Assembly: GCF_000412185.1 (NCBI RefSeq)
Contig: NZ_ASJA01000005.1
Span: forward strand, 124,001-188,000
Length of the DNA: 64,000 nt
Direction: 5' to 3'
Origin: Euryhalocaulis caribicus
GTDB taxonomy: Bacteria > Pseudomonadota > Alphaproteobacteria > Caulobacterales > Maricaulaceae
In this document: positions 1 to 16,736 of the stretch, in pieces
How the letters are laid out: each line of letters begins with the position of its first letter
Numbering within the stretch: position 1 is the stretch's first letter
Program-made: the position numbers and the translations under genes
The notes under the pieces: model-generated
What the model saw: only the letters and a program-made list of their open reading frames with translations
What the model was told of the DNA's origin: nothing
Databases searched by the model: none

Positions 1-1
1 G

Positions 2-880
2 GCCGAGATCTATGCCGTTATCGGCAGCCTGCTGATCGTCGGAGTCACGATTTCCGGCTTCAAGGGAATCGACAAGCTGGCCCTGGCGCTGGTCCCGCTC
101 ATGGCGCTTTTCCTGATCTACGCCGCCGCGCTTTCCATCGGCAAAATCGATGGCTGGAGCCTGCCCGCGGACCAGCGCACGCTCAGCTTTTCCTCCGCCG
201 TTTCGGCCGTAATCGGCAGCTATATCGCCGGCGTGATCATCCAGCCGGACTATGCCCGGTTCGCGCGCAACAGGCCGCACGCCATATGGTCCGCCGTGAT
301 CGCGCTGGGCGTCAGTTTTCCCGTGGTGCTCTTGCTGGCGGCCATTCCCAGCGTCGCCATGGGGCAGTCGGACCTGTTCCTGATCATGCTGGGGCTGGGC
401 ATCGGCGTTCCGGCCTTCATCCTGCTGCTGCTCGCCTCCTGGTCCTCAAATGTTCTGTGCCTGTATTCCGCCGGGCTTTCGGTGGCGACCATATTGAAGC
501 GGGTGGATTTGCGGACGATCCTTCTGGCGGCGGGGACCGCCGGGACGGCGCTGGCGATGCTGCACGCGCAGGATTACCTCACCCGCTACCTCATTCTTCT
601 GGGCATCGCGCTGCCCCCGATCGCCAGCATCTATGCGTCCGAAGCGCTGCTGTTCCGGGACGCGTTCTCGCTTGAGGCCCTGAAAACGGAGTCCGCGATC
701 AGCTGGCCGGCCTTCGCCGCATGGGGCGGCGCAGTGGCGGCCGGATACGCGGCCTATTCGGAGCGGGCGAGCTTCACCGGCGTCGCGGCGCTGGATTCCA
801 TCCTCGCCGCCTTCTTGATCTATGCCGGGCTGGGCTATGCCCGCCGCGCCGCCGCGCGGCGCTCCGGCCGGGCCGCCTGA
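2..880 (+). CDS. NCS1-family cytosine/purine permease, C-terminal part
   Basis: The frame is open from the left edge, so the start lies outside the window; about 292 residues remain. The protein is a run of hydrophobic helices separated by short loops. The stretch SYIAGVIIQPDYARFARN resembles the conserved segment in the middle of CodB-like permeases (NCS1, nucleobase:cation symporter-1), which import cytosine, purines or allantoin across the inner membrane. Around nine membrane spans can be seen, and the tail is short and arginine-rich. Family assignment is fairly secure; the substrate cannot be told from this part. The gene is followed by two hairpins and then an unrelated avidin-like gene. 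Confidence 0.75.
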   Translation, partial: AEIYAVIGSLLIVGVTISGFKGIDKLALALVPLMALFLIYAAALSIGKIDGWSLPADQRTLSFSSAVSAVIGSYIAGVIIQPDYARFARNRPHAIWSAVIALGVSFPVVLLLAAIPSVAMGQSDLFLIMLGLGIGVPAFILLLLASWSSNVLCLYSAGLSVATILKRVDLRTILLAAGTAGTALAMLHAQDYLTRYLILLGIALPPIASIYASEALLFRDAFSLEALKTESAISWPAFAAWGGAVAAGYAAYSERASFTGVAALDSILAAFLIYAGLGYARRAAARRSGRAA

Positions 881-893
881 AGCGCGCGGGCGA

Positions 894-959
894 CTACCCG
901 AAAGGGTAGGGGGGCGAACCCCCGGACTATACCGATCTCCTTTGAGTCTATCCGAAACG
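894..959. promoter_or_regulatory. Two adjacent hairpin palindromes plus a half repeat upstream of the avidin-like gene
   Basis: CTACCC-GAAA-GGGTAG (894-909) is immediately followed by GGGGG-CGAA-CCCCC (910-923). A degenerate copy of the first half, CTATCCGAAACG, sits at 948-959 and matches CTACCCGAAAGG at 10 of 12 positions. No T-tract follows, so this does not look like a simple intrinsic terminator for the permease. An operator, or a structured leader for the gene starting at 1036, is more likely. Role inferred. Confidence 0.4.
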
Positions 960-1035
960 CTGATGGCGGAATTCGCCTGAGACGCGCAAGACTCGCCCGT
1001 GAACTGACATCGCGCCTTAAGGGGAGGAAAGATCG

Positions 1036-1824
1036 ATGAGCCTGACGGGAGTTTGGTCGAACAGCTACGGTTCGGTGATGAATTTGAGCCAGTTTGCCGG
1101 CGGTCTGATCGCCGGAACCTATTCATCCTCAACCGGGTCCACCGGAAAATACTATGTCGCCGGGATGGCCGGACCATCCGACCCCACGCCCTCGCTGGGC
1201 CAGAGCGCGGCGCTCTCCATCTACTGGCGGTCCTATACGGGCGGGCAGGGCGACCCTAGCTGGCACTGGGTTTCCGGCCTCAGCGGCCAGTTGAACACCA
1301 GCGGCTCTCAGCCGACGCTCTATCTGATGCACGCCATGGTCGCGACGGACAATTTCCCGAACGTCGCCAATGTCGGCACCTATATCGACAAGCTGATCTA
1401 CACGCCCAAACAGGGTGAGACGGATAGCTCCATCAAGGACGCGCTCAGCGAGGGCGCGAACGGAACCGACCCGATCAGCGGCGTCTGGGTCTGTAACGAG
1501 GAGCCCGGCACGATCATGCAGCTGAGCGTCAGCGGCCCCAGCACCGGCTATGTCACGGGCGATCTGGCCAGCGCGGCGGGGCGCTATGTTCTGGTCGGGT
1601 TTACCGATGTGGACGCACAGTCGGGCGGCATCGCCCGTCAGGGTCTCTCGGTCAGCGTCGGGGTCGGCGACGCCGGCGTCTGTATGAGCATGGCGGGCAG
1701 CCTGGATTTCTCGACCGGGGTGATGACCCTCACGGTCTATGCCAGCCGCGGCACGTCCGCCGACACGATCTATACCCAGACACAGGTCTCTCAGTGGACC
1801 TTTACCAAATCATCCGACGATTGA
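1036..1824 (+). CDS. Tandem two-domain avidin/streptavidin-like protein
   Basis: The protein has 262 aa and a strong Shine-Dalgarno (GGGGAGG, 1021-1027). Domain 1 (about residues 3-130) opens with GVWSNSYGS and then GTYSSSTG, matching streptavidin GTWYNQLGS and GTYESAVG. This keeps the equivalents of biotin contacts N23, S27, Y43 and S45, and a Trp in ALSIYWRSY sits where W79 is expected. Domain 2 (about 145-262) shows GVWVC, GDLASAAGRYVLVG and a closing QWTFTKS, parallel to streptavidin RYVLTG and HDTFTKV. In both domains the Asp128 position and most later tryptophans are replaced. No signal peptide is visible. Streptavidins are normally single-domain tetramers, so a fused pair is unusual. 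Family membership is inferred from motif alignment by eye; biotin binding is possible for domain 1 and doubtful for domain 2. Confidence 0.7.
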   Translation: MSLTGVWSNSYGSVMNLSQFAGGLIAGTYSSSTGSTGKYYVAGMAGPSDPTPSLGQSAALSIYWRSYTGGQGDPSWHWVSGLSGQLNTSGSQPTLYLMHAMVATDNFPNVANVGTYIDKLIYTPKQGETDSSIKDALSEGANGTDPISGVWVCNEEPGTIMQLSVSGPSTGYVTGDLASAAGRYVLVGFTDVDAQSGGIARQGLSVSVGVGDAGVCMSMAGSLDFSTGVMTLTVYASRGTSADTIYTQTQVSQWTFTKSSDD

Positions 1825-1849
1825 TTCCACCGCAGGGGAGGCGAGGGAC

Positions 1850-3166
1850 ATGACCCATCAATTTAACAGGAAAGCAGCTTTTCTCGCGGCGGCGGTTTCG
1901 GCGTTGCTGCCGGCGGCCTGCGCGACGGGGGGCGAGGCTCCGCCGGATACGGGCGCCATGCTGACCGTGCCCATGAAACTCGGCCAGATGGCCGATTACG
2001 GCGCGACGCCCTGGTACACCGATGCGATCACGCTGGGCTCCAGCCCCATGCATCTGGCGATCGACAGCGGCGCGAATTTTTTCTGGGCCACGTCAGACAA
2101 GTGCCAGACCACGGCCTGCAACGCGCATCTGAAGGTGAACACCACGCAGCCCGGCTTCACCTGGATTGATACCAGCTCGACCAAGCGCTCGTTCGGACCG
2201 TGGGGCGACATGTATACCTGGACCGGTTCGGTCCCGGTCGGGATCAATGGCGTTTCATACCAGGCGAGCAATTTCTTTGCTTCGGTCCAGTATGAGGGGC
2301 CGAAGTTTGAATATCTCGCCTGGGGCGGCGGAATCGGCATGCCTTCGACCTCCACCTGGGTGGAACAGGGATCAGGCTTCCTGATGGGCGAACTGTTCAA
2401 ATCCGGCGTTCTGGCCCAGCCGGAGTTTGCCATGGTGACCGAACCCTCGACGGGGATGGGCTATACCTATCTGGGCGGGCCGGGGGATCCCTCTCAATAT
2501 GTCCAGCAAACCGAGGCGCGGCTGGCCCCGAAAAAGGCGGCGATCGGTTATCTCTGGGGAACCGAGCTGGCGAACGTCTTCCTGGGGGGCACGCCGCTTC
2601 CCGCGCTTCAGGGGCAGACCTTCTTCCTCGATTCCGGCTCGTCCCGGTTCAAGGGCGATGCGCAATATCTCTATCCGATCATGACTCCGCTCTCGCAGAT
2701 GACGGGGCCTGACGGACAGCCGATCTTTACGCGCACCTATGACGAGAACGGCAACTGGACGGGTCTTTATTACACCAAAGGCGGACCCTCCGATTACCAG
2801 TTGCCGGACGTGACACTGAACATGGGCGAAACCTGCTACGGTTATTCAGCCTACCAGCTTCAGATCACCCTCTCGCCGGAGCAATATTCCTACTATGTGC
2901 AGGAAGGCGACCAGGCGGGGAAATGGGCGCTGGCTTTCCACCGGCTTGACGGGGTGGGCGGCCTGCTGGTCGGGTCGACCTTCATGGACCTGGTCTATTC
3001 CCGCTTCACATACGGCCTCGCGCCGGAGGGGCAATTGATCCAGAGCGATATGTATCTCTACCGGAAGAGCGGCGGCGCGCAGCCCAAGACCTATACCTGC
3101 ATCTATACCGATACGGGCGAGGCCGTGCCGGCCGAGGAGCTGGCCCGGCGGGGTTCCGATTCCTGA
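1850..3166 (+). CDS. Pepsin-like (family A1) aspartic protease, secreted
   Basis: The protein has 438 aa from the ATG at 1850, which is preceded by AGGGGAGGCGAGG; a longer frame starting at 1739 would overlap the gene before it and lose the signal peptide. Residues 1-24 form a signal peptide ending in LPAAC, a possible but imperfect lipobox. Two catalytic loops typical of bilobed pepsins are present: IDSGANFFW with Asp72 and LDSGSSRF with Asp261. The C-terminal GGLLVGSTFMDLVYSRF resembles the pepsin segment around ILGDVFLRNYYTVFD. Four or more cysteines suggest disulfides and an extracytoplasmic site. A1 proteases are rare in bacteria. It starts 25 bp after the avidin-like gene, so the two are probably co-transcribed. 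The substrate is unknown. Confidence 0.8.
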   Translation: MTHQFNRKAAFLAAAVSALLPAACATGGEAPPDTGAMLTVPMKLGQMADYGATPWYTDAITLGSSPMHLAIDSGANFFWATSDKCQTTACNAHLKVNTTQPGFTWIDTSSTKRSFGPWGDMYTWTGSVPVGINGVSYQASNFFASVQYEGPKFEYLAWGGGIGMPSTSTWVEQGSGFLMGELFKSGVLAQPEFAMVTEPSTGMGYTYLGGPGDPSQYVQQTEARLAPKKAAIGYLWGTELANVFLGGTPLPALQGQTFFLDSGSSRFKGDAQYLYPIMTPLSQMTGPDGQPIFTRTYDENGNWTGLYYTKGGPSDYQLPDVTLNMGETCYGYSAYQLQITLSPEQYSYYVQEGDQAGKWALAFHRLDGVGGLLVGSTFMDLVYSRFTYGLAPEGQLIQSDMYLYRKSGGAQPKTYTCIYTDTGEAVPAEELARRGSDS

Positions 3167-3181
3167 AAGCGCCGCCAGCGC

Positions 3182-3241
3182 GCGATACCGGGGCGGTTGA
3201 GTATGGGACATCTCACTGCGGGGAGGCCGTCCCGGTATCGC
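3182..3241. repeat. Inverted repeat between convergent genes
   Basis: Perfect 11-bp arms GCGATACCGGG (3182-3192) and CCCGGTATCGC (3231-3241) are separated by 38 nt. They lie between the protease stop and the end of the esterase, and the right arm is inside the esterase coding region. It could act as a bidirectional, factor-dependent termination structure; there is no T-tract. Confidence 0.35.
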
Positions 3242-4904
3242 AGCCTGGCGCGGCGTTGACGCCCACATTGACGAACCATTGTTGCCCCGCCTCCCGGCGG
3301 CGTTGGACAAGTTCGTCCTGCATCTCGAACATGCCGGGCAGCGGGTCGCGGGCGGCGGCGGGCATGTCGGCGATATGCAGATAGGACTGACCGTCGGAAT
3401 AGGGACGCCAGTGCGGGCCGTTCCGGCTCTCCGGCATTCCGGTTCTGGCGAAAGACGCCCAGTAATCCATCATCGCCGAAGAAAGCGCCGCTTCCCCATC
3501 GCCCTCCGGAACCGGCCAGTTGGGCGGGAACGCCGCCTCATTGCCCGTCTTGCCGAAAACAAAGGGCAATTCGCTGGCGTGGAAGGCGCAGAGATCACGC
3601 GCCCGGGCCGCCGGGTAGCAATGGTCGAAGATATAGAGATAGGCGGGCAGGCCGTCTGAAGACTGTTCGCGGATCATGCGCTCCACGGCCCAGCCATAAA
3701 TGGCGTCGCGCAGCGTATCCAGTATCGATTGTCCGATGTTGGATGCCGGATAAAGGTCCAGAAATGCGTCAGCCAGATCGCCATAACCGCAGCGAATGGC
3801 GGTTTCATAGGCCGCCGCGTCCTCCGGCGCCGGCGGCAGAAAAATCCTCTGGGAGCGCAGTTCGCCGCTATTGAACCCGGCCAGTAAAGGCGTGCTGGCC
3901 TGCGCCTCGTCCTCGAACGCCTCGATCACTTGTCGGGGAAGCGACCAGCCGTCGATGGTCCCCTGACTGGGGAAACGCTTCCTGGCGGCGGCGTCCGTCA
4001 GGGTTTGCGCATCCATCGCGCGCAGCTCTTCAACGCCGGGATGGCCAAGACCGGCGGCCAGCTTCGCGCCGATCGCCTCCGCTGACGGCAAGCCATGGGC
4101 GGAGCGGGTGAGGTGCGGCACGGCCCGGATATTTGGACTTTGCGCGATGGCCTTGTGAAACAGGCCGCGGGCCAGCGGGCTGCTCATCAGATAGGTGACG
4201 CTCAGCGCCCCGGCGGATTCCCCCATGATCGTGACATTGTCCGCATTACCGCCGAACGCGGCGGCGTTCTTCTGGACCCAGCGCAGCGCCGCGATCTGGT
4301 CCAGCAGGCCATAATTGCCCGATGCGGCGTTCGGCGACTCCGCGCTCAAACCGGGGTGCGCCAGCCACCCCAGAACCCCGAGGCGGTAATTGATCGAGAC
4401 GAGCACAATTCCACGGCTCGCCAGCTCCGCCCCGTCATAGAGCGGCTCGGCGGCGCCCCCAATGCGCAGGGATCCGCCATGTATCCAGACGATGACGGGC
4501 GCGTTTTCCGCGTCTTCCGGCGCCCAGACATTCAGGCTCAGGCAATCCTCTGACGCGGCCTCCGGCGGGTCGTAATAAATGCTGGTTCGCGGAATCGCCG
4601 GCTGGATACAGCTGGGCCCGAACGCCGAGGCATCGCGCACGCCCTCCCAGGGCGGTGCGGCTTGCGGGGCGCGCCAGCGCAACGGGCCGACGGGCGCCGC
4701 CGCGTAGGGAATGTTCTTAAAGACCGTCAGTCCGTCTTTCTGGACGCCTTCAACGCGGCCTTGGGCCGTTGCAACAACCGGGTTGGCCGCCGGCGCTTCC
4801 GCCGCGGCCCCCGCCGCACAGGCGGCAAGGGCAGGCAGGACAAGGACGGGGCAGATCGCGCGAGCCGCGCGAAACACGAGGGTCAATCCGGGCAGTCCAG
4901 ACAT
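3213..4904 (-). CDS. Type-B carboxylesterase, lipoprotein
   Basis: The protein has 563 aa from the ATG at 4904, which has GGGAGG just upstream; longer frames run into the neighbouring gene. The signal peptide ends in the lipobox LAAC (Cys29). The alpha/beta-hydrolase core shows WIHGGSL (oxyanion hole), the nucleophile motif GESAG with Ser230, NSGE with the likely acidic residue, and FHASELPF with the likely catalytic His. These are hallmarks of the COesterase (cholinesterase-like) family, which hydrolyses carboxylic esters. It is the last gene of a three-gene minus-strand operon and starts 1 nt after the M28-like gene stops. It is a clear paralogue of the esterase at 12706-14364; both end with a DxLPGMFE...WNVGV-type segment. 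The likely site is the periplasm or outer membrane. Confidence 0.9.
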   Translation of the reverse strand: MSGLPGLTLVFRAARAICPVLVLPALAACAAGAAAEAPAANPVVATAQGRVEGVQKDGLTVFKNIPYAAAPVGPLRWRAPQAAPPWEGVRDASAFGPSCIQPAIPRTSIYYDPPEAASEDCLSLNVWAPEDAENAPVIVWIHGGSLRIGGAAEPLYDGAELASRGIVLVSINYRLGVLGWLAHPGLSAESPNAASGNYGLLDQIAALRWVQKNAAAFGGNADNVTIMGESAGALSVTYLMSSPLARGLFHKAIAQSPNIRAVPHLTRSAHGLPSAEAIGAKLAAGLGHPGVEELRAMDAQTLTDAAARKRFPSQGTIDGWSLPRQVIEAFEDEAQASTPLLAGFNSGELRSQRIFLPPAPEDAAAYETAIRCGYGDLADAFLDLYPASNIGQSILDTLRDAIYGWAVERMIREQSSDGLPAYLYIFDHCYPAARARDLCAFHASELPFVFGKTGNEAAFPPNWPVPEGDGEAALSSAMMDYWASFARTGMPESRNGPHWRPYSDGQSYLHIADMPAAARDPLPGMFEMQDELVQRRREAGQQWFVNVGVNAAPGCDTGTASPQ

Positions 4905-4905
4905 G

Positions 4906-6234
4906 TCAGCCTCCCTGTAGAGCGCGCTCCAGCAGGCGCTGGAACGCCGTAACGGTCGCCGCGACATTCTCGCCGGACACACAGCGTTCATCGTCCTCCG
5001 CCACGTGATGAAAACGGTGAACTCCGAAAACGCCGGCGACCGGGGCATAGCCCGCTTCGATGATATTGGTCAGCTCGCCGGCCGAAAGCTGATCGCTTCC
5101 ATAAGGCGCCTCCAGTCCCGCCAGGCCGGAAAATTCCTTTCTCGCGGCGGGAAGAAGTCCGGGGCTGACCACCAGATAGCGTTGGGAATCCGCGCCGGGC
5201 AGCGGGCTGCGCGACCCGACCCCGTCATGCCAGTCGCGCGAGGCGAGATTGGCTCCCAGATGGAGCCAGAACGCGGTCTTTTCCGGTGGCGGCGCCACAT
5301 TGTGCAGCAATTCCTCGGCGCCCAGATACTGGTATTCGTGACCGCTATTGCACACGAAGGCGAGGTCGTAACCCGGCGCCGCGCGGCCCGCCCAGCGGGC
5401 CAGGTGAAGCCATGCGGCGATGCCCCCGCCGCGCTCCCCCGCGCAGGTGAACCAGCCCGAGCGCGGGGTGGAGACGACCAGCCAGCGGCCATGGCCGCGG
5501 TCCAGCTTCCCGACCAGATTGAAGGCCTGTCTGCGCCCGCCTTGTCCGGTCAGTCTCAGGGTGGCTTCCCGGCCTTCCATGGCCGCGGCGAAGAAAGGCG
5601 CGGCGTCTTCGGGCGCCAGCAAAGCCATGGGTTTTGGATGAAGCGGCTCACGGCCATCGGTGTTCAGCGCGATGACCTTGCCGGTCGGCCCGTTGGTGAC
5701 GATCACGCAAGCGGCCGCGCCCCCGGCGAAAGCGGCGTCCACGGGTTTGCGGACCGGCTCCCAGAACATGGATGACCAGCGGCCGGCGGGCGGGTCGATC
5801 AGCGCAATGGCGCCTTGCAGCGGCTGTGCGGCGAGTCCCTGCGCGTCCACTCGCACGATGGGGGCGGTTATCCCCTCCGCCGGGGTGGTCTGCACAATCG
5901 GTTGCGGCCACAGCGCGGCTCGCGCGTCACCGGCGGCAAGGTCTGCCTGTTCGGCTTCAAACCAGGGCGCGGAGAAATATTGGCGGTCTGTTTTAAAGCC
6001 CGCCCTGGCAAGTTCGGCTTCCAGCCACGCGCCGCAGGCCTCATCGCCCGGACCGCCCGATTGTTTGCCGCCAAACCCGATATATCGCTGCAAATCGGCG
6101 GCGACGGCGCCGGCATGGTCCGGCGCGGCTGCGGCCAGATTGCCCCCGGCGATCAGGGGCGTGGCGGCCGAGGCGGCCAGAAAGCGTCGGCGCGTCGTCG
6201 TCCCTTCTTCGGCGCGGCGTGTCTGATCAGTCAT
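4906..6234 (-). CDS. M28-peptidase-like protein with Tat signal, metal site degenerate
   Basis: The protein has 442 aa. A twin-arginine signal (TRRRFLAAS, residues 14-22) directs export of a folded protein. A PA-like insertion (about 115-230) is followed by an M28 aminopeptidase-like domain. CNSGHEYQYLGAEELL corresponds to the Glu-rich stretch of active M28 enzymes and FGVHRFHHVAEDD to the terminal histidine region. However, where active enzymes have His-x-Asp and a Gly-Ala-Asp-Asp-Asn segment, this protein reads STPRSGWFTCAGERGGG, so first-shell zinc ligands appear lost. It overlaps the transporter gene by 8 nt. It may be a binding protein or an enzyme with different chemistry. Family clear, activity uncertain. 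Confidence 0.7.
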   Translation of the reverse strand: MTDQTRRAEEGTTTRRRFLAASAATPLIAGGNLAAAAPDHAGAVAADLQRYIGFGGKQSGGPGDEACGAWLEAELARAGFKTDRQYFSAPWFEAEQADLAAGDARAALWPQPIVQTTPAEGITAPIVRVDAQGLAAQPLQGAIALIDPPAGRWSSMFWEPVRKPVDAAFAGGAAACVIVTNGPTGKVIALNTDGREPLHPKPMALLAPEDAAPFFAAAMEGREATLRLTGQGGRRQAFNLVGKLDRGHGRWLVVSTPRSGWFTCAGERGGGIAAWLHLARWAGRAAPGYDLAFVCNSGHEYQYLGAEELLHNVAPPPEKTAFWLHLGANLASRDWHDGVGSRSPLPGADSQRYLVVSPGLLPAARKEFSGLAGLEAPYGSDQLSAGELTNIIEAGYAPVAGVFGVHRFHHVAEDDERCVSGENVAATVTAFQRLLERALQGG

Positions 6235-8093: not shown

Positions 8094-8789
8094 TCAGCCG
8101 GTTTCCTGTTCCGGCTTGCCGCAAATCCTGTAGAAGCCCGCGGCCATGAAATGCGCCATGCGCGCCTTGACGGCCGCGTAGTCGCTGGATTTGCACAATC
8201 CGCCGGACAGCTTGTCGATCCGCCCCGTGCGCGCCAGCGTCAGCATCAGCGCGCCGGACACGAAGTGGTAGCTCCAGAAAATATCTTCTTCCGCGGCGTC
8301 CGGCAGGGCCTGTTTCAACAGCTCGATAAGGCGCAGGACCACTGGATCGAAATGCTGATCCATCATGTCTGCGCCCCATTCCGGCGTGTTGGCGACTTGG
8401 GCGCTCAACGCGCCGTAATTGCGCCATCCCTCGCCCCCTTCGATATAGAGATCGAGGTCGGTATCCAGGAAGGCGTGAAGCGCGCCCTCGACCGTGGGCT
8501 TGCCGCCGGTCTCCGCGTCATAGGCGTCCAGCGCCTTCATGCGGCGCTCGCTGGTCACCGCGGCGCGGCGCGCGAAAACCGCATCGAACAATTTCTGCTT
8601 GTCGTCGAAATAATAGTTCAGAAGCGTGTGGTGAACGCCCACGCGCTTGGCGACGTCCTTAAGCGTGACGCCGTGCAAGCCATTCCTTGAAAACAGGTAT
8701 TCCGCCACATCGAGAATTTGCTCGATGGTTTCGGCGCGTTTCTCCGCCTTGGTCTGGCGTTTGCGCTGCGGATTAGGATTTGCTGGCAA
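8094..8789 (-). CDS. TetR/AcrR-family transcriptional regulator
   Basis: The protein has 231 aa. The N-terminal helix-turn-helix covers about residues 17-63, with the DNA-reading end VGVHHTLLNYYFDDKQKLFDAVF typical of TetR. The C-terminal ligand domain contains EGALHAFLDTDLDLYIEGG and HFVSGALMLTLARTGRIDKLSGG. It is a close paralogue of the regulator at 16002-16736, with long identical stretches in both domains. It sits between two operons, the MHS/M28/esterase set and the receptor/MFS/esterase/ligase set, and probably represses one or both in response to a shared acyl or ester ligand. Similar elements occur upstream of both operons. Confidence 0.9.
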   Translation of the reverse strand: MPANPNPQRKRQTKAEKRAETIEQILDVAEYLFSRNGLHGVTLKDVAKRVGVHHTLLNYYFDDKQKLFDAVFARRAAVTSERRMKALDAYDAETGGKPTVEGALHAFLDTDLDLYIEGGEGWRNYGALSAQVANTPEWGADMMDQHFDPVVLRLIELLKQALPDAAEEDIFWSYHFVSGALMLTLARTGRIDKLSGGLCKSSDYAAVKARMAHFMAAGFYRICGKPEQETG

Positions 8790-8982
8790 GATAACCCCTT
8801 TCCCGCCGCCTTTGCTTTACGGGAGCGAAGGCTACCGCATTGTTCATAAACAGTTGAATTTTAACCGCAACCGGACAGGCCGCGTGTTCCGCCCCAGGCA
8901 CCGGATAGAACGCTTCATTCGCGCTGGTAAATTCAGAAACCATCCTTTCGGGGATAGCTCCCGGCTTGGAGGGGCGCAAGTC

Positions 8983-9004
8983 ATTCACACTCTTGTCAGT
9001 GAAT
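8983..9004. promoter_or_regulatory. Candidate TetR operator, copy B
   Basis: Inverted repeat ATTCAC (8983-8988), ten-base spacer, GTGAAT (8999-9004). The stretch CTCTTGTCAGTGAAT (8990-9004) shares 13 of 15 bases with 8031-8045. It is centred about 75 bp upstream of the TonB receptor start, where a repressor could block the promoter. Confidence 0.5.
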
Positions 9005-9067
9005 ATTATTTTCAGTAGCGTGCCGGGAATAGTCGGCAACAGACCGGCTAATGGGGAGGATAAGGTT

Positions 9068-11341
9068 ATGAAAAACGTGCTGTTTGCGTCCGCGTCTGCG
9101 GTCGCGTTTCTTGCTTCGCCAGCCGCCGTTATGGCGCAGACCGCGCCGGACCAGTCCGGTGAAATCCGGACACAAACGGGCGCGGCGGACGAAATTGTCG
9201 TGACGGCGACCCGCCGTGAAATGAACCTTCAGGACGTGCCGCTCAGCGTGACCGCCTTCACGCAGGAAGAGCTGACCACCAAGGGGATTGTCGGCTATGA
9301 GGGGCTGGCGCTCGAAACGCCGGGCGCGGTCCTCAACAAACCGACCGCGAACTTCAATACATTCTCCGTGCGCGGCATCGCCACGAACGGCTACCAGGCG
9401 AACCTGCAGAATTCGGTCGCGGTCTATATCGACGAATTGCCGATCTCGGCGAACGGCAACTCCACCCAGCTGGACTCGACGCTGTTCGACGTTGAACGGG
9501 TGGAATTCCTTCGCGGTCCGCAGGGCACGCTGTTCGGCTCAGGCTCGCTGGCCGGCGCGGTTCGCATCATCACCAAAAGCCCGGATCTGAATGATTTTGA
9601 CGCCCAGGCGCTGGTCGATTTCGGCCTGACGGACGGCGACTCGTTCCGTCAACGCTATAACGGAATGGTCAATCTGCCGCTGGTCGAGGACAAGCTGGCG
9701 CTCCGCGTCGTCGGTTTCTACCGGAACGAGGAAGGCTGGGTCGAGAATATCGGCACCGGCGAGGATAATGCGAATACGCTGGAGAACTGGGGCGGCCGCG
9801 CAGTCCTGCTGTGGGAGCCGACCAGCAAGGCCTCGGTGCGCCTGATGGCTCTGCATGAGAAAAGCGAGCCCGAAGACTCACAGCTCATAAACCCGAATCT
9901 CGACCCGGACCGCGAAACGCGGAACACGCGCCGCCCGGACGTCTTTGGCGGGGATCTCGACTCCTATAACGCCACGTTCGAGTACGATCTGGGCTTCGCG
10001 AATTTCACCAGCTCGACGACATACTCCTACTACGCGCAATCCTTCATCATCGATCTGGACGCCACCTTCGGCGGCGCGATTCCCTTTGCTCTCGACGCTT
10101 TCGCCTATGACAAGGCGTTCGTCGAGGAGGCGCGGCTGGTTTCCAGCGGGGACAGCCGTCTGCAATGGATCGTGGGCGGGTTCTATTATTACAAGCGGCG
10201 GGACACGGACCTTTTCTACCGCTCCGACCCCGCCTTCCTTGACGCATTCGGGATGACCGGCCTGCCGGACGAATATTACCAGCGCGCCTTCAACCACACG
10301 AATTCGGAAGAGATCGCCGCCTTTGGCGAGGCGACCTATAATTTCAGCGACCGCTTCTGGCTCACGGGCGGCTTGCGCTACGGCTCTCTGGACGTCCAGA
10401 GCTTTGCCGAGGGCGGCTATAACAGCAACTATCTGACGAATGCGCTCTTCGGCATTCCCGGCCCGCTCACGGTTACCCAGATCCAGCCGGCGACGGGGGA
10501 AAAGGGCACCGAAAAGGGCTTCTCCTACAAGCTGAGCGCATCATTCAAACCGGTCGACAATGTCACGACCTATGCGACTTATTCGACCGGTTTCCGCGCG
10601 CCGGCGGTCAATGCGCGCGCCGGCCTTCCCAGCTCCGTCGACCCGAACGACATCATCATTCCCGACGGGGCCTCTTCGGATGATCTGAAGAACTACGAAA
10701 TCGGCGTGAAGGGGAACTGGTTCAACGGCAAGCTGTCGGCCAACCTCGCCGCCTATTATATCGACTGGAGCAATATTCAGGTTCAGGCCAACCGCGTGTC
10801 CGACCAGGTGCAATTCGCCACCAATATCGGCGGCGCCACCAGCAAGGGCATAGAGTTCGAGATGACCGCTAGGCCGGTCGATGGGCTGAGCATCGGTCTG
10901 AACGGCTCGTTCAACGATTCCGAAGTCACGGACCTGACCCCTGAAGAGGCGGCGATTTCCGGCGCCGTGAAGGGCATCCAGCTGGCCTTCCCGGAGTTTC
11001 AGGGCGGGGCTTACCTGACCTATACCAGACCGCTCACGGCGACCGTGGACGGTTTCCTTTCAGTCAATGCGCGTCACGTTCAGGGATATCCGAACCAGTT
11101 CCCCAACGTGCCGGGTCAACCGGGCGTGCAATCGCCCACATACGCGCCGACCGAAGCCTATGAGACCGTGAACATGTCGGCCGGGGCCGATTTCGGCGAT
11201 CACTTCAAGGCGACCTTGTATGTTGAGAACGCCTTCGACGATCACTCGCTGATCTATTCCCATCCGGAAGGCTTTGCCGACGCCCGGTTCAGCACCCTGC
11301 GGCCGCGCACATTCGGCGTCCGGCTGAACTATAAATACTGA
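9068..11341 (+). CDS. TonB-dependent outer-membrane receptor
   Basis: The protein has 757 aa from the ATG at 9068, followed by a clean signal peptide ending in VMAQ. The TonB box DEIVVTA precedes a plug domain (about residues 45-165) with the motif VERVEFLRGPQGTLFGSGS, and a 22-strand-type barrel ends in an aromatic tail (NYKY). The plug style matches the large receptor group used for carbohydrates, aromatics and other complex nutrients rather than siderophore receptors. It heads an operon with an MFS transporter, esterase and acyl-CoA ligase, so it probably imports the ester substrate. Likely regulated by the adjacent TetR. Confidence 0.9.
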   Translation: MKNVLFASASAVAFLASPAAVMAQTAPDQSGEIRTQTGAADEIVVTATRREMNLQDVPLSVTAFTQEELTTKGIVGYEGLALETPGAVLNKPTANFNTFSVRGIATNGYQANLQNSVAVYIDELPISANGNSTQLDSTLFDVERVEFLRGPQGTLFGSGSLAGAVRIITKSPDLNDFDAQALVDFGLTDGDSFRQRYNGMVNLPLVEDKLALRVVGFYRNEEGWVENIGTGEDNANTLENWGGRAVLLWEPTSKASVRLMALHEKSEPEDSQLINPNLDPDRETRNTRRPDVFGGDLDSYNATFEYDLGFANFTSSTTYSYYAQSFIIDLDATFGGAIPFALDAFAYDKAFVEEARLVSSGDSRLQWIVGGFYYYKRRDTDLFYRSDPAFLDAFGMTGLPDEYYQRAFNHTNSEEIAAFGEATYNFSDRFWLTGGLRYGSLDVQSFAEGGYNSNYLTNALFGIPGPLTVTQIQPATGEKGTEKGFSYKLSASFKPVDNVTTYATYSTGFRAPAVNARAGLPSSVDPNDIIIPDGASSDDLKNYEIGVKGNWFNGKLSANLAAYYIDWSNIQVQANRVSDQVQFATNIGGATSKGIEFEMTARPVDGLSIGLNGSFNDSEVTDLTPEEAAISGAVKGIQLAFPEFQGGAYLTYTRPLTATVDGFLSVNARHVQGYPNQFPNVPGQPGVQSPTYAPTEAYETVNMSAGADFGDHFKATLYVENAFDDHSLIYSHPEGFADARFSTLRPRTFGVRLNYKY

Positions 11342-11344
11342 TCG

Positions 11345-12709
11345 ATGACGGCGCGCTCGCCATCGATAGAAGCCGCCGATACGCCCGCCTCAGGCCCCGC
11401 CGCGACGGCGCGGCCGGGCGGGCGCGCCTGGTGGACGCTGGGCATGTTGTGCTTCGTCTATGTCCTGAACTTTCTTGACCGCCAGCTCCTGTCGATCCTG
11501 GCCAAACCGATCCAGGACGATCTGGGCGTCACGGACGGTCAGCTGGGCCTGATCGGCGGTCTGTATTTTGCGCTCTTCTATTGCCTGATCGCCATTCCGG
11601 TCGGCTGGCTGGCGGACAAGACCAATCGCGTCCGCGTTCTGGGCTTTGCCTGCTTCCTGTGGAGCGCGGCGACCATTGCCTGTGGACTGTCGCGAAACTA
11701 TCCGCAGCTTGTCATCGCCCGTATGACGGTCGGCATCGGGGAGGCGGGCGGCGTGCCGCCGTCCTACGCCATTATTTCGGATTATTTCCCCTCCGGCATG
11801 CGGGGGCGGGCGCTCGGTATTTATAATATGGGGCCGCCGATCGGCGCCGCCCTCGGGGTGGCTTTCGGCGCCTCCATCGCGGCGGCGTTCAGCTGGCGCG
11901 ACGCGTTCGTCTCGATCGGCATTGTCGGCGTGGTGACCGCGCTGGCGGTTCTGGTCTTCGTGCGCGAGCCCAAACGCGGCGGCCTCGACGCCGGACCGGT
12001 TGCCGATACGCCCGCTCCCGCGCCGGCGCCGGCCGCCGCGCCGCCGCAGGAAAGCTTTCGCGCGACCTGCAAGATGTTCTTTGCGCATCCCTCGCTACGG
12101 CTCATCGCGTTCGCCAGCGGCGCCACACAGTTCGTGACCTATGCCGTGATCAATTTCACCACGCTCTTCCTGATGCGTGAAAAGGGCATGACGCTGGGCG
12201 AAATCGCCATCTATTACGCGTTGTTGCTGGGGCTGGGCGTCAGCGCCGGCATGTATGTGTCCGGGCGGCTGGTCGACTGGCTGTCGCGGCGCACGAAAGC
12301 GGCCTACGCCTATGTCCCGGCGGCGGGCCTCGTGGTCGCGGTGCCGTTTTTCATCGGCTTTGTCTGGGCGCCCACATGGCCCCTCGCCATGGCGTTCCTC
12401 ACCGTGCCGACGGTTCTGAATTATTTCTACCTGTCGCCCGCCGTGGCGCTGGTCCAGGAAGAGGTCAAGCCGAACCAGCGCGTGCTGTCGGGGGCGCTTT
12501 TGCTGCTGGTGATGAATTTGATCGGCCTTGGCCTGGGGCCGACCTATCTCGGGGCGGCCAGCGATTTCTTCCGCGACAGCCACCCTGACAATTCACTGCA
12601 GATCGCCTTCTATACGCTCATCCCGTTCTATTTTCTCGCGATTGCGCTCTTCCTCTGGTTGGGCCGCATTCTGAGCCGCGAAACCGAAGCCGGAGGACGC
12701 TCCCGATGA
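11345..12709 (+). CDS. MFS transporter, Spinster-like
   Basis: The protein has 454 aa and twelve predicted spans. NFLDRQLLSILAKPIQDDLGVTD, GWLADKTNRVRV and ARMTVGIGEAGGVPPSYAIISDYF are typical of the Spinster-like MFS group common in sphingomonads and Caulobacterales catabolic clusters. A proline/alanine-rich loop (about residues 215-235) joins the halves. It starts 3 nt after the receptor stop and overlaps the next gene by ATGA. It is probably the inner-membrane step for the compound brought in by the receptor. It is related to the transporter at 49676-50989. Confidence 0.85.
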   Translation: MTARSPSIEAADTPASGPAATARPGGRAWWTLGMLCFVYVLNFLDRQLLSILAKPIQDDLGVTDGQLGLIGGLYFALFYCLIAIPVGWLADKTNRVRVLGFACFLWSAATIACGLSRNYPQLVIARMTVGIGEAGGVPPSYAIISDYFPSGMRGRALGIYNMGPPIGAALGVAFGASIAAAFSWRDAFVSIGIVGVVTALAVLVFVREPKRGGLDAGPVADTPAPAPAPAAAPPQESFRATCKMFFAHPSLRLIAFASGATQFVTYAVINFTTLFLMREKGMTLGEIAIYYALLLGLGVSAGMYVSGRLVDWLSRRTKAAYAYVPAAGLVVAVPFFIGFVWAPTWPLAMAFLTVPTVLNYFYLSPAVALVQEEVKPNQRVLSGALLLLVMNLIGLGLGPTYLGAASDFFRDSHPDNSLQIAFYTLIPFYFLAIALFLWLGRILSRETEAGGRSR

Positions 12710-14364
12710 CCCTGCTATCCCGTATCGCGCCTGCCCTGTCGGCGGCCATTCTAGTTGCGGCGACCGCCGCCTGCGCCAGCACCGCCGAAAGCGGCGATGC
12801 TGTTGTCGACACCGCATCGGGACCGGTCCGGGGCGTGGCCCGGGACGGCCTGAAGATTTTCAAGGGCATCCCCTTCGCCGCGCCGCCCACCGGGGATGCG
12901 CGCTGGACGCCGCCTGCGCCGGCTCCCGCGTGGGATGATGCGCTCGACGCCAGCGAATTCGGCAATGCCTGCATGCAGCCCCGCCGGCGCGGCTTCAGCA
13001 TCTATGCCGATTCATCGCTGCCCGACACGAGCGAGGATTGCCTGAATCTGAATGTCTGGGCCCCGGAAAACGCCGCGAACGCGCCGGTTTTTGTCTGGAT
13101 TCACGGCGGGTCGCTGACCAGCGGCGCGGGCAGCCAGTCCCTCTATAACGGCGCCGAGTTCGCCAAGCGCGGCATCGTCTATGTCTCGATCAATTATCGC
13201 CTCGGCGTTCTGGGCTATCTGGCCCATCCCGAACTCAGCGCGGAATCGCCGGACGGCGTCTCCGGCAATTACGGCCTCCTGGACCAGATCGCCGCGCTGG
13301 AATGGGTGGAGGACAATATCGCCGCGTTCGGCGGCGACCCGGACAATGTGACAATTGCCGGCGAGTCGGCAGGCGCCCTCAGCGTCACCTATCTGATGAC
13401 CGCACCGGCGGCGCGCGGCCTGTTCGACAAAGCGATTGCGCAGAGCGCCTACATGCTCTCCACGCCCGAACTCAAGGAGGCGAGCTTCGGCGCGCCTTCC
13501 GCGGAAACCACGGGCGCTTATGTCGCCGGAAAAGTCGGGGCGGAAGACCTTGCGGCGCTCCGCGCGATGGAGCCGCAGACCCTGATCGAGAAGGCGGCGC
13601 AGGCTGGCTATATTCCCTGGGGCACGGTCGACGGTCTTACGCTTCCGGGGCAGCCCGTGAACGTCTTCGATGAAGGCCAACAGGCGCCGGTCCCGGTCAT
13701 GGCCGGCTTCAATAGCGGTGAAATCCGGTCTTTGCGCTTCCTCCTGCCCAAGGCGCCGTCGAACGCCGAAGACTATGAAGCGGCAATCCGGAAAGGCTAT
13801 GGCGATCTCGCCGGCGCCGCCCTGGAACACTATCCCTCACGGGACATCGACGAGGCCATGCTCGCTGCGACCCGCGACGCCATGTATGGCTGGACGGCGG
13901 AGCGCCTTGTTCGCAAGCAGGGGGATATCGGTCAGCCCGGTTTCCTCTACATCTTCGATCACGGCTATCCCGCGGCGGACCAGAACGGGCTCAACGCCTT
14001 CCACGCCAGCGAACTGCCCTACATGTTCGGCAATCTCGACCGCATTTCAGAGTTCTGGCCGGCGCCCCCCGATACGGCGGAGGAGCGTGCGCTCTCCGAA
14101 GCGATGATCGGCTACTGGACGTCTTTCGCGCGCGATGGCGCGCCCGCCGCGGCGGACCAGCCCGCATGGCGGCCTTATGGCGCGGACGAAGCCTATATGT
14201 ATTTCGCGGATGCGCCTCACGGCGCGGACACCGATCTTCTGCCGGGCATGTTCGAACTGCATGAAGAGGTGATGTGCCGCCGCCGCGCGGCCGATGTCGG
14301 ATGGACGTGGAATGTCGGCGTCATCGCGCCGCCATTGCCTCCGCAGGTTCCCGAATGCCAGTGA
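12706..14364 (+). CDS. Type-B carboxylesterase
   Basis: The protein has 552 aa and starts within the transporter stop (ATGA). A signal peptide ends near TAAC (Cys23), an atypical lipobox. Motifs are WIHGGSL for the oxyanion hole, GESAG with Ser221, FNSGE for the acidic residue and FHASELPY for the catalytic histidine. It is a paralogue of the lipoprotein esterase at 3213-4904. The downstream gene is an acyl-CoA ligase, so the carboxylic acid released is probably activated to its CoA thioester. Exact ester unknown. Confidence 0.9.
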   Translation: MTLLSRIAPALSAAILVAATAACASTAESGDAVVDTASGPVRGVARDGLKIFKGIPFAAPPTGDARWTPPAPAPAWDDALDASEFGNACMQPRRRGFSIYADSSLPDTSEDCLNLNVWAPENAANAPVFVWIHGGSLTSGAGSQSLYNGAEFAKRGIVYVSINYRLGVLGYLAHPELSAESPDGVSGNYGLLDQIAALEWVEDNIAAFGGDPDNVTIAGESAGALSVTYLMTAPAARGLFDKAIAQSAYMLSTPELKEASFGAPSAETTGAYVAGKVGAEDLAALRAMEPQTLIEKAAQAGYIPWGTVDGLTLPGQPVNVFDEGQQAPVPVMAGFNSGEIRSLRFLLPKAPSNAEDYEAAIRKGYGDLAGAALEHYPSRDIDEAMLAATRDAMYGWTAERLVRKQGDIGQPGFLYIFDHGYPAADQNGLNAFHASELPYMFGNLDRISEFWPAPPDTAEERALSEAMIGYWTSFARDGAPAAADQPAWRPYGADEAYMYFADAPHGADTDLLPGMFELHEEVMCRRRAADVGWTWNVGVIAPPLPPQVPECQ

Positions 14365-15995
14365 CCGACGGGGCGATGCAGCCCTATGCGCTGACCCTCA
14401 ACAAGTTCATCGAGCACGCCGCCAAATGGCATCCGGAGGCGGAAGTCGTGACCGGGCGCGGGGGGGACGCGGTCGACCGGACAGGATATGCGGCGCTGAA
14501 GGCGCGGGCTTTGCGGGTTTCCGCGGCTCTGGCCGGGCGCGGCGTCCTGTTCGGCGACCGCGTTGCAACGCTGGCCTGGAATACCCAGGCTCATGTCGAG
14601 GCCTGGTACGCCATCATGGGGATGGGGGCGGTTTGCCACACGCTCAATCCCCGCCTGACCGCCGCGCAGCTGGCCGCCATGCTGAACCAGTCAGAGGCGC
14701 GCGTGCTGATCGTCAGCGCCGACCTCGCCCCGCTGGCCCGCAAGATCGTGGCGGAGGCCGCCTCCGTTTCACAAATTCTGGTGATCGATGGTCCGGCGCC
14801 GGACTGGCGCGGCGAAGACCCGGACTTGTCCGTCTCCACGCTGGAAGACGCCCTCGCCGGGGCTGACGGTCATGTCGTCTGGGGCGATTTCGACGAGACC
14901 TCGCCTTCCGGCCTGTGTTTCACTTCCGGCACGACAGGGTCGCCGAAGGGCGTCACCTATACTCACCGCTCCGGTTATCTTCATACGCTGCGGCAACTAC
15001 AGGCCGACGTCATGGGGCTCACCGCCGCCGATGCCGTCCTGACCGTGGTGCCGATGTTCCACGCCAATGCCTGGGGCCTGCCTTTCGCCGCGCCCGCGGC
15101 GGGGGCGAAACTGGTGCTTCCCGGCCGTATGGCGGATGGCGCCAGTCTGGCGCGGCTGATCGAATCCGAAGGCGTGACGATGGCCGTCGGCGTGCCCACT
15201 GTCTGGCTTGGTCTGCTGGAGCATGTCGAGGCAACCGGCGGCGACCTGCCGACGCTCAGGCGGATCATGGTGGGCGGCGCCGCCCTGGCGCCCGCCCTGA
15301 TGGACCGGATAGAGCGGCGGCTGGGCGTGACCGTTCAGACCAGCTGGGGCATGACCGAACTTTCGCCGCTGGGCGTCAGCGCGGCGCCCGGCGACAGCGA
15401 CCGCAAGGCCTGGATGTCCGGCCGACCAGCCGTCGGCGTGGACCTCCTGCTGACCGACGCGGAAGGGGAGCCTCTGGCGGATCAGCGCGCCGCGGAGGGG
15501 CATCTGCGGGTGAGGGGCTCCGCCGCGATAGAGCGTTATTTCGGCCATGATGAAGCGGCGACCGACGAAGAGGACTGGTTCGATACCGGCGACCTCGCCC
15601 GGATAGACACCCGCGGAAACCTTATCATCACGGGCCGCGCCAAGGATCTGATCAAGTCGGGCGGCGAGTGGATAAATCCGTCAGAGATCGAGGCCATTGT
15701 CGGCGCCCTGCCGCAGGTTTCGCAGGCCGCCGTCATCGGCCGGTCGGACGAAAAATGGGGCGAGCGTCCAATCCTTCTGGTCGAGCTGGCGGAGAACCAG
15801 TCCGTGACCGATGACGAATTGCTGGAGCCGTTGCGTGGCCGCGTGGCGTCTTGGTGGCTTCCCGATGCGGTCATGCGGCTGGACAACATGCCGCTGGGAC
15901 CGACGGGCAAAATTGACAAGCTTCGCCTGAGGTCAGACTACAGGGACGCGTCCAGCGCCGAGGGTCAGTTTTCCGGCAAGCGGGCGGTTTCCTGA
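14355..15995 (+). CDS. Acyl-CoA ligase (AMP-forming)
   Basis: The protein has 546 aa. The start chosen is the ATG at 14355, overlapping the esterase by 10 nt and giving MPVTDGAMQPYALTLNKFIEH; the ATG at 14376 is an alternative. The adenylate-forming core has the P-loop-like FTSGTTGSPKGVTYTH (about residue 190), QTSWGMTELSP, the DTGDLARID hinge region and the C-terminal PTGKIDKLRLR with the catalytic lysine. These define the ANL superfamily, medium/long-chain fatty-acid or aryl-acid CoA ligases. It is the last gene of the receptor operon; the product would enter beta-oxidation or a CoA-dependent route encoded elsewhere. Confidence 0.9.
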   Translation: MPVTDGAMQPYALTLNKFIEHAAKWHPEAEVVTGRGGDAVDRTGYAALKARALRVSAALAGRGVLFGDRVATLAWNTQAHVEAWYAIMGMGAVCHTLNPRLTAAQLAAMLNQSEARVLIVSADLAPLARKIVAEAASVSQILVIDGPAPDWRGEDPDLSVSTLEDALAGADGHVVWGDFDETSPSGLCFTSGTTGSPKGVTYTHRSGYLHTLRQLQADVMGLTAADAVLTVVPMFHANAWGLPFAAPAAGAKLVLPGRMADGASLARLIESEGVTMAVGVPTVWLGLLEHVEATGGDLPTLRRIMVGGAALAPALMDRIERRLGVTVQTSWGMTELSPLGVSAAPGDSDRKAWMSGRPAVGVDLLLTDAEGEPLADQRAAEGHLRVRGSAAIERYFGHDEAATDEEDWFDTGDLARIDTRGNLIITGRAKDLIKSGGEWINPSEIEAIVGALPQVSQAAVIGRSDEKWGERPILLVELAENQSVTDDELLEPLRGRVASWWLPDAVMRLDNMPLGPTGKIDKLRLRSDYRDASSAEGQFSGKRAVS

Positions 15996-16001
15996 GCGGC
16001 A

Positions 16002-16736
16002 TTGCTCTTGATCGGTGACGGAAAAGCTCAAGTTTTGTCTTCTGATGATGCGAAATCCGGGCGCAAGCCCCAGACAAGGGCGGAGCGCCGCGCTGAATCC
16101 ATAGAGCTTATCCTCGATTCAGCCGAGGCCCTGTTCTCCAGGCGCGGTTTTTATGGCGTTACGCTGAAGGACATCGCCAAGCACGCCGATGTTCATCACA
16201 CGCTGATCCATTATTATTTCGACGACAAGAAAGCCCTGTTCGACGCGGTGTTTTCCCGCCGCGCCCCGGTCTCGAGAGAGCGCCGGATGAAGGCGCTGGA
16301 CGAATACGAAAAGTCGGCGAACGGCAAGCCGACCGTGGAAGGCGCGCTGCACGCCTTTCTGGATACCGATTTCGATCTCTATATCGAGGGCGGAAAGGCG
16401 TGGAAGAACGCGCTCGCCGTCGCCGCGCAAGTGGCGAACACCCCCGAATGGGGGGCCGAGCTGATGGAAAAGCACTTCGATTCCGTGGTCTTGCGCCTGA
16501 TCGATATTCTCAAGAAAGCGCTCCCCGACTGTTCGGAGGAAGACATTTTCTGGGGCTATCACTTCGTGACCGGCGCGCTCATGCTGACGCTGGCGCGCAC
16601 GGGCCGGATCGACAAACTCTCCGGCGGCGTCTGCGACTCCGATGACTTCCCGGCCGTCAAGGAACGCATGGCCGAGTTCATGGCGGCCGGATTCCACGCC
16701 GTCTGTGAAGAGCGGAAATCAGACCGAGCGACCTGA
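16002..16736 (+). CDS. TetR/AcrR-family regulator, paralogue; non-ATG start
   Basis: The helix-turn-helix (KPQTRAERRAESIEL through DVHHTLIHYYFDDKKALFDAVF) and ligand domain closely match the regulator at 8094-8789. No ATG or GTG is available between the in-frame stop at 15993 and the DNA-binding domain. Translation must therefore begin at TTG 16002, TTG 16008 or TTG 16035, probably coupled to the ligase gene ending 6 nt earlier. Up to 244 aa. It likely co-regulates the ester catabolic operons; the low-efficiency start would keep repressor levels modest. Confidence 0.85.
   Translation: MLLIGDGKAQVLSSDDAKSGRKPQTRAERRAESIELILDSAEALFSRRGFYGVTLKDIAKHADVHHTLIHYYFDDKKALFDAVFSRRAPVSRERRMKALDEYEKSANGKPTVEGALHAFLDTDFDLYIEGGKAWKNALAVAAQVANTPEWGAELMEKHFDSVVLRLIDILKKALPDCSEEDIFWGYHFVTGALMLTLARTGRIDKLSGGVCDSDDFPAVKERMAEFMAAGFHAVCEERKSDRAT

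Follow-up and report, generated by a model that had tools for sequence, protein, structure and literature searches.

A predicted tandem avidin with one conserved pocket, encoded beside pepsin-like protease and hydantoinase genes

The window analysed here is a 64,000-nucleotide stretch of an Euryhalocaulis caribicus contig, and one of its genes encodes a tandem avidin. The reading that we prefer, to which we give about an even chance, is that we have here an avidin dimer made naturally as a single chain, in which one site is live and the other dead, and that it serves as the cyclic-ureide-binding part of a ring-opening pathway. The ligand is assigned provisionally, from the conserved urea grip of domain 1 together with the gene neighbours. 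A preliminary description of the gene had proposed a natural avidin pseudo-dimer in which one of the sites is degraded, and the predicted structure, the profile comparison and 19 sequences including that of the window agree with it. The neighbouring genes, a pepsin-like partner and a hydantoinase cluster, had been missed and are the stronger functional evidence.

Results

Two barrels in one chain

The features discussed below are collected in Table 1. The reading frame of the tandem avidin extends at most 5 codons upstream of the ATG (267 aa in total). Because of this short upstream frame, and because the N-terminus leads directly into strand 1 of the first barrel, there is no room for a signal peptide, as had been claimed. 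A pattern scan of positions 800-3400 revealed no sigma-70 promoter or terminator, and positions 1-4000 have no Rfam match. The permease gene upstream is matched by the NCBIfam cytosine permease and NCS1 models below their cut-offs.

Table 1. Features of the tandem avidin and its immediate neighbours (positions within the window).
Feature	Position	Strand	Basis or remark
NCS1-family permease gene, 3' part	1..880	+	Pfam Transp_cyt_pur, 48.3 bits; gene begins before the window
Shine-Dalgarno-like ggggaggaa, 5' of tandem avidin	1021-1029	+	Sequence; strong
Tandem avidin ORF	1036-1824	+	ATG, 262 aa
Avidin domain 1, residues 1-126; pocket N9, S13, Y29, S31 with W64, S80	1036..1413	+	Pfam, model, conservation
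Inserted loop QGDPSWHWVS between strands 5 and 6, residues 71-80	1246..1275	+	Gap in profile of five single-domain avidins
Inter-barrel linker, residues 127-147	1414..1476	+	Model DSSP; pLDDT dip to 58 at 131-140
Avidin-fold domain 2, residues 148-262 and stop; pocket lost	1477..1824	+	Model, profile, site columns
Pepsin-like (family A1) aspartic protease, 438 aa	1850..3166	+	Pfam Asp (PF00026), 46.2 bits, cut-off 19.9
Protease catalytic Asp72	2063-2065	+	Predicted
Protease SFGPWG flap-like motif	2189-2206	+	Predicted
Protease catalytic Asp261	2630-2632	+	Predicted

Residues 2-104 in domain 1 match the Pfam Avidin family (PF01382) with 30.7 bits against a cut-off of 24. Domain 2 of the window protein has no Pfam match, and none of 17 domain 2s scanned matched Avidin. 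When the PDB was searched with phmmer, streptavidins were matched, the best being the engineered tandem streptavidin 6s4q (E 7.5e-6). Structure was predicted by AlphaFold2 from a five-row alignment of the window protein and its relatives. The model (pLDDT 82.5, pTM 0.86) has 8 strands in each domain, and the best whole-chain matches found by Foldseek are the engineered single-chain dimeric streptavidins 6s50 and 6s4q. VIA-align placed the model on these two structures with Z scores of 30.3 and 30.2 (2.3-2.4 Å, 228-231 residues). Model residues 1-126 fall on streptavidin 15-134, residues 144-261 match streptavidin 3re6 (Z 15.2, 2.4 Å, 113 residues), and the Z score of each modelled domain against streptavidin is about 15. 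A second model was made for a Pseudomonas relative with the protease in front. Its tandem part matches 6s50 (Z 28.7, 2.7 Å, 231 residues) and its domain 2 matches 3wyq (Z 15.8, 1.7 Å, 113 residues). In this model, of the L009 fusion, the protease half is poor, and the mean pLDDT of the whole is 52.4.

Since sequence profiles of known avidins miss domain 2, its kinship was tested against domain 1. The domain 2 profile recovered no avidin from the PDB (best E 0.35, a non-avidin), and against the five single-domain avidins hhalign gave a weak match (probability 14, score 24.1; control maximum 20.0). Comparison of the domain 1 and domain 2 profiles gave a score of 53.3 over 117 columns. The control consisted of 200 column-shuffled profiles, which reached at most 19.6 in the domain 1 comparison and 20.0 with the single-domain avidins. 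It replaced, with a new seed and settings, a 50-shuffle control whose parsed maxima of 132.5 and 131.7 are unexplained. This profile comparison shows the halves of the tandem avidin to be an internal duplication, with a score far beyond chance. Domain 2 is predicted to be an avidin barrel, an identification based on the modelled fold and on its profile kinship with domain 1. The preliminary description of two fused streptavidin-like domains is thus supported by the eight-stranded barrel predicted for both halves and compared with streptavidin, by the whole-chain match to the single-chain dimeric streptavidin (scdSav) and by the match between the domain profiles. An avidin-profile hit was obtained for domain 1 and not for domain 2.

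One pocket is conserved

Streptavidin numbering is used for the binding site, in which we take N23, S27, Y43 and S45 to grip the urea group of biotin. The equivalents of these residues and of W79 (N9, S13, Y29, S31 and W64) are kept in domain 1 of all 19 tandem proteins, as the preliminary description had noted for the window protein. The T90 place is Ser by alignment in 19/19. At the W108 place (residue 99) 16 proteins have His and 3 have Asn, and at the W92 place (residue 82) the alignment puts Leu, Met, Phe or Tyr. Within the set of tryptophans that hold the ring and tail (79, 92, 108 and 120), W79 is kept and W92 and W108 are replaced in domain 1, in keeping with the loss of late tryptophans described earlier; no counterpart of W120 was located. 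The inserted loop carries W78 in 19/19 and W76 in 17/19.

In domain 2 the alignment is less certain and gives, at the N23, S27, Y43, S45 and W79 places, mostly Ala, variable residues, mostly Leu, variable residues and Leu/Ile/Val, respectively. Among the 19 proteins the Y43 place is never Tyr and the W79 place never Trp. The constancy of the domain 1 pocket (19/19) against the variation in domain 2 indicates that selection maintains one pocket and has released the other.

Asp128 had been described as lost in both domains. This is so in domain 2, where its place is taken by W254 and is Asp in 0/19. For domain 1 the DxF motif allows D118 to be the equivalent of Asp128, and we considered whether the earlier claim was simply wrong. 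The motif fits this register, but the end offset of the model and the alignment of domain 1 to domain 2 favour L120, as does the conserved aromatic Y122 when it is equated with F130. We regard it as likely that L120, not D118, takes the Asp128 place, so the loss in domain 1 is favoured at that strength. Under the L120 register D118 precedes the Asp128 place by two residues and points to the same side of the strand. The urea grip, too, would be weaker if Asp128 has really been lost from domain 1. The pair His99-Asp118 is nearly fixed in domain 1, and two of the three Asn99 proteins have Gln or Glu at 118, hinting from sequence that residues 99 and 118 may work together in the pocket.

Distribution of tandem avidins

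Relatives were sought in plasmids, phages, viruses and genomes. The tblastn search of 72,556 plasmid records yielded one full-length relative, in Novosphingobium EMRT-2, and that of 50,697 phage records yielded none. Alignment-based scans found three Pseudomonas loci and one further Novosphingobium among genome contigs and none among viral contigs. In whole genomes, tandem avidins were found in 2/398 of the order, the window's own among them, in 11/249 of Pseudomonas, the genus of G785 (one already found), and in 5/398 of the phylum (the window's own, two new ones and two repeats of Pseudomonas matches). Scans with the single protein against genome, viral, phage and relative collections had returned the window alone, as for a unique orphan; this idea was abandoned when plasmids and alignment searches gave a family. 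The tandem avidin is not an isolated case: homologues occur in Novosphingobium, in Pseudomonas and elsewhere in the phylum.

Once repeats had been removed, the set for comparison comprised 19 tandem proteins (window, L008, L009-L013, L021-L030, L034 and L035). They were gathered with tandem queries, and all carry the C-terminal extension. Many of the Pseudomonas loci are orthologous and so do not count independently, and L008 is nearly a copy of L012. In a tree of the 19, G696 and G1065 are grouped with good support, half of the inner branches (8 of 16) are left open, and the window and G1171, both long rows, are placed unsurely. Fused and unfused protease states change at least 2 times on this tree.

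A pepsin-like protease accompanies most copies

The protease gene of the window starts 25 nt downstream of the tandem avidin, and its product has, by eye, an export-signal-like N-terminus. The protease family profile matches chymosin 1cms (E 8.5e-20), and both D[ST]G catalytic motifs are present in 15/15 family members. The flap tyrosine of pepsin is Tyr75; its place, as set by one chymosin alignment, is Phe in 15/15.

Protease and tandem avidin are fused in 12/19 loci and adjacent in 3, and the protease is absent in 4. The fusions, with the protease in front of the tandem avidin, come from 11 Pseudomonas genomes and G1065. Where the two genes are adjacent they lie on the same strand, with the protease downstream in the window's genome and upstream in G696 and G1171. 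The loci without the protease are L008, L012, L055 and L056, and no match was found anywhere in G787, G1013, G802 or the L008 plasmid. Two surveys detected the protease, one in 1/220 Sphingomonadales (the window's own) and the other in 6/224 Pseudomonas, all six of them tandem-avidin genomes, so that no protease without a tandem avidin was seen in these 220 and 224 genomes. The fused genomes G1020, G1024 and G1030 are missing from the Pseudomonas matches and are believed to lie outside the draw of 224. A PF00026 search of 12 genomes failed to detect the protease of the window itself; its negative results were set aside, and eight genomes or records were searched again with the family alignment. 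This false-negative weakness may affect other genome-wide misses in the protease and HyuB surveys.

Inspection by eye suggests export signals that cover both parts in G696 and G1065, neither part in Pseudomonas and G1171, and the protease only in the window. Because the window protease looks exported and the avidin does not, one joint avidin-protease complex fits the window badly. Directly behind the exported-looking G1065 fusion, L057 encodes at 10591-13269 an AAA_16/TPR protein without a GerE match, reminiscent of the LuxR/MalT-like regulators beside other copies.

Hydantoinase genes lie near most of the tandem avidins compared

The hyuA gene occurs in 15/19 tandem loci and hyuB in 14/19, the L012 stretch ending inside HyuA. 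Other neighbours are a protease (15), a racemase (13), a LuxR/MalT-like regulator (11), an MFS transporter (11), a TonB receptor (4) and an NCS1 permease (1, the window), as counted over sequence stretches of which several end before the whole cluster. The 13 racemases belong to 11 Pseudomonas and 2 Novosphingobium loci, and none was found at the window's locus or in G696. Eleven of the 19 loci have both protease and Hyu genes, 4 have Hyu genes only and 4 have the protease only; the Hyu genes are absent near L047, L051, L057 and L058. Since four loci lack Hyu genes and four lack the protease, neither is obligatory.

Gene order differs among these loci. In the window's genome (G000) it is LuxR/MalT-like regulator, TonB receptor, HyuA, HyuB, NCS1 permease, tandem avidin and protease, the genes before the permease lying upstream of the window. 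Novosphingobium L008 has avidin, LuxR-type regulator, TonB receptor, Asp/Glu racemase-family gene, HyuA, HyuB and M24 peptidase, and L012 has the same order up to HyuA, where the stretch ends. The order HyuA, HyuB, conserved protein, Asp/Glu/hydantoin racemase, MFS transporter and (protease-)tandem avidin is shared by 11/13 Pseudomonas loci. In G696 the order is protease, avidin, LuxR/MalT-like regulator on the other strand, TonB receptor, HyuB and HyuA. Because the Pseudomonas loci are orthologous, the independent evidence lies in the several distinct gene orders and not in the raw count. When 20 cluster proteins were used as queries against the surroundings of five single-domain avidins, no match was found at 1e-5, and the positive control L009 gave ten matches in the same search.

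Searching genomes with PF02538 revealed one HyuB each, that of the avidin cluster, in the Pseudomonas genomes G846, G984 and G802. G985 and G1171 have none, G1065 has one elsewhere in the genome, and G000 and G696 have two each. Among solved structures the relatives of HyuA and HyuB are N-methylhydantoinase and 5-oxoprolinase, and the closest model in NCBIfam, that of caprolactamase, scores well under its cut-off. Those of the racemase are OpaE, hydantoin racemase and allantoin racemase; since OpaE, which comes from a fungus and acts in oxepinamide synthesis, is the best of these, the label hydantoin racemase is not proven. None of the neighbours that were scanned, a part of the total, was recognised as encoding an N-carbamoyl amino acid hydrolase (hyuC).

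Two further features of the clusters were seen. In 11 Pseudomonas loci the hydantoinase cluster includes a conserved protein of about 296 aa (L009 3575-4465 and relatives), which has no Pfam match and an unconvincing best PDB match (E 0.64); the L055 copy has an export-signal-like start. In L018 (G696 contig 4, 89276-96180) two genes of the HyuB type are found within 7 kb, next to the protease-avidin pair, which suggests that the ring-opening module there is duplicated or more complex.

The window also contains a second block of uptake and catabolism genes at 8094-16736, with a TetR regulator, TonB receptor, MFS transporter, carboxylesterase, AMP-binding ligase and another TetR regulator. Its carboxylesterase is 54% identical to one at 3213-5048. 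At 4906-6234 on the minus strand is a gene for a 442-aa protein with a twin-arginine-like N-terminus (RRRFLAAS), which has no Pfam match at 1e-3 and a weak match to an NCBIfam aminopeptidase (E 0.0013).

Discussion

The head group of biotin is a cyclic urea. HyuAB-family enzymes act on many cyclic amides, which counts against naming any one substrate for the cluster. Because the urea grip is invariant, the residues that hold the thiophene ring and tail have changed and the neighbours point to cyclic ureides or lactams, a ligand other than biotin is plausible. The earlier suggestion, made from sequence, that the tandem avidin perhaps no longer serves for biotin is plausible as well. We propose that domain 1 would bind a 5-substituted hydantoin, a similar ureide or lactam, or a relative of biotin with moderate affinity, and that domain 2 may be a scaffold standing in for the second subunit. 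The tandem avidin could then be the binding, buffering or sensing part of a pathway for uptake and ring opening. Its other parts would be an outer-membrane receptor, an NCS1 or MFS transporter, a racemase, the ATP-dependent HyuA/HyuB and a LuxR/MalT-like regulator, not all of which are found everywhere. As to the protease, it would most likely act on a ligand-bearing peptide or protein delivered by the avidin, or else ligand binding would control the protease; this step is the more weakly inferred. The full scheme, in which a one-site pseudo-dimeric, non-biotin avidin with a cyclic ureide or lactam ligand is the recognition part of a hydantoinase pathway and steers or gates a tethered pepsin, is put forward tentatively, at somewhat less than an even chance.

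Three other explanations were weighed against it. If the tandem avidin sequestered biotin, it could starve competitors or predators of the vitamin while the attached protease adds damage. The fully kept urea-binding residues of domain 1 suit such a defence or competition protein, and passages of a 2021 survey deem extended avidins potent biotin binders and tie the peptidase to defence (PMC8033661). However, the W108 and W92 places are replaced and probably that of Asp128 too, a signal peptide would not fit in the window avidin and is not seen by eye in the Pseudomonas fusions, and the recurring neighbours are catabolic and transport genes. We consider this explanation unlikely. Scavenging is less likely still. 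Here the avidin would capture a biotinylated protein or biocytin, the protease would digest the carrier and HyuAB would open the urea ring, which would account for an avidin fold, a protease, transporters and a urea- or lactam-opening hydrolase in one cluster; L008, L050 and L055 have an M24 peptidase as well. Against it, the general scan of neighbours turned up neither a biotinidase nor a biotin-CoA ligase, a racemase of the hydantoin type is more readily accounted for by hydantoins, and L008, L012, L055 and L056 keep avidin and Hyu without the pepsin.

The tandem barrel could instead be a structural module, with no small ligand, through which the protease is assembled or targeted, a role of the kind ascribed to the avidin-like domain of fibropellin. 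The pocket-less domain 2 and the protease fusions at 12/19 loci are consistent with such a role. Four loci are without the protease, however, and the invariance of five pocket residues in 19 proteins, with domain 2 free to vary, indicates selection for ligand binding on domain 1. A purely structural role therefore seems very improbable to us, and the cyclic-ureide reading is retained.

Parts of the system have been described before. According to passages of the 2021 survey, 'extended' avidins of two Pseudomonas species are fused at the N-terminus to a family A1 aspartic peptidase, and those of several species carry a C-terminal extension of about 150 residues on which InterPro and CDD failed; the extended clade was judged likely to consist of potent biotin binders (PMC8033661). 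Our proteins fit this description, in that all 19 have the extension and 12 the fused peptidase. The survey's neighbour analysis covered 500 bp on either side, and the words hydantoin, oxoprolinase and operon do not occur in its main text (PMC8033661). By contrast, the extension is here predicted to be a second, pocket-less avidin barrel, and we find unfused neighbour proteases, which the same passages do not describe. The additions made here are thus the dead avidin barrel that the model predicts for the extension, the unfused protease neighbours and the hydantoinase cluster with most copies. In the open-access literature searched, neither the second barrel nor the hydantoinase link was found: no paper joined avidin with hydantoinase, nothing relevant joined biotin catabolism with hydantoinase, and nothing useful joined avidin with imidazolidone, urea or hydantoin.

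In the man-made scdSav (PDB 6s4q/6s50), too, a single chain forms two streptavidin-type barrels, which are arranged relative to each other as in the window model. This construct joins two nearly identical streptavidins, whereas the window protein is natural, about 22% identical and has lost one pocket. Streptavidin itself shares with domain 1 the fold and N23, S27, Y43, S45 and W79. The window protein differs from it at W92, W108 and probably D128 and has the DPSW[HN]W loop, a second barrel and no signal peptide. Like the Pseudomonas copies as judged by eye, shewasins, described as bacterial pepsins, are A1 proteases without a signal peptide and have both D[ST]G motifs (PMC4814920). The predicted protease described here differs in being fused or adjacent to a tandem avidin and in having SFGPWG at the flap position. 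HyuAB-family enzymes open hydantoin, oxoproline and caprolactam rings with ATP, and HyuAB of Pseudomonas sp. NS671 hydrolyses 5-substituted hydantoins (PMC8453981). NS671 HyuAB and the caprolactamase CapAB belong to the same ATP-dependent HyuA/HyuB family as the present cluster, which adds an avidin and a pepsin that are absent from the descriptions of those enzymes in the sections cited (PMC8453981).

The purpose of bacterial avidins is an open question, for which the survey, in the passages cited, can only suggest defence (PMC8033661). The recurring link to hydantoinase and protease gives concrete ligands and substrates to test, and the second barrel could account for the C-terminal extension seen in the extended clade. 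As a natural counterpart of the engineered scdSav with apparently a single live site, the tandem avidin could serve as a monovalent scaffold. If the proposal is true, avidin would gain a physiological partner pathway, and its urea grip would be older or broader than biotin.
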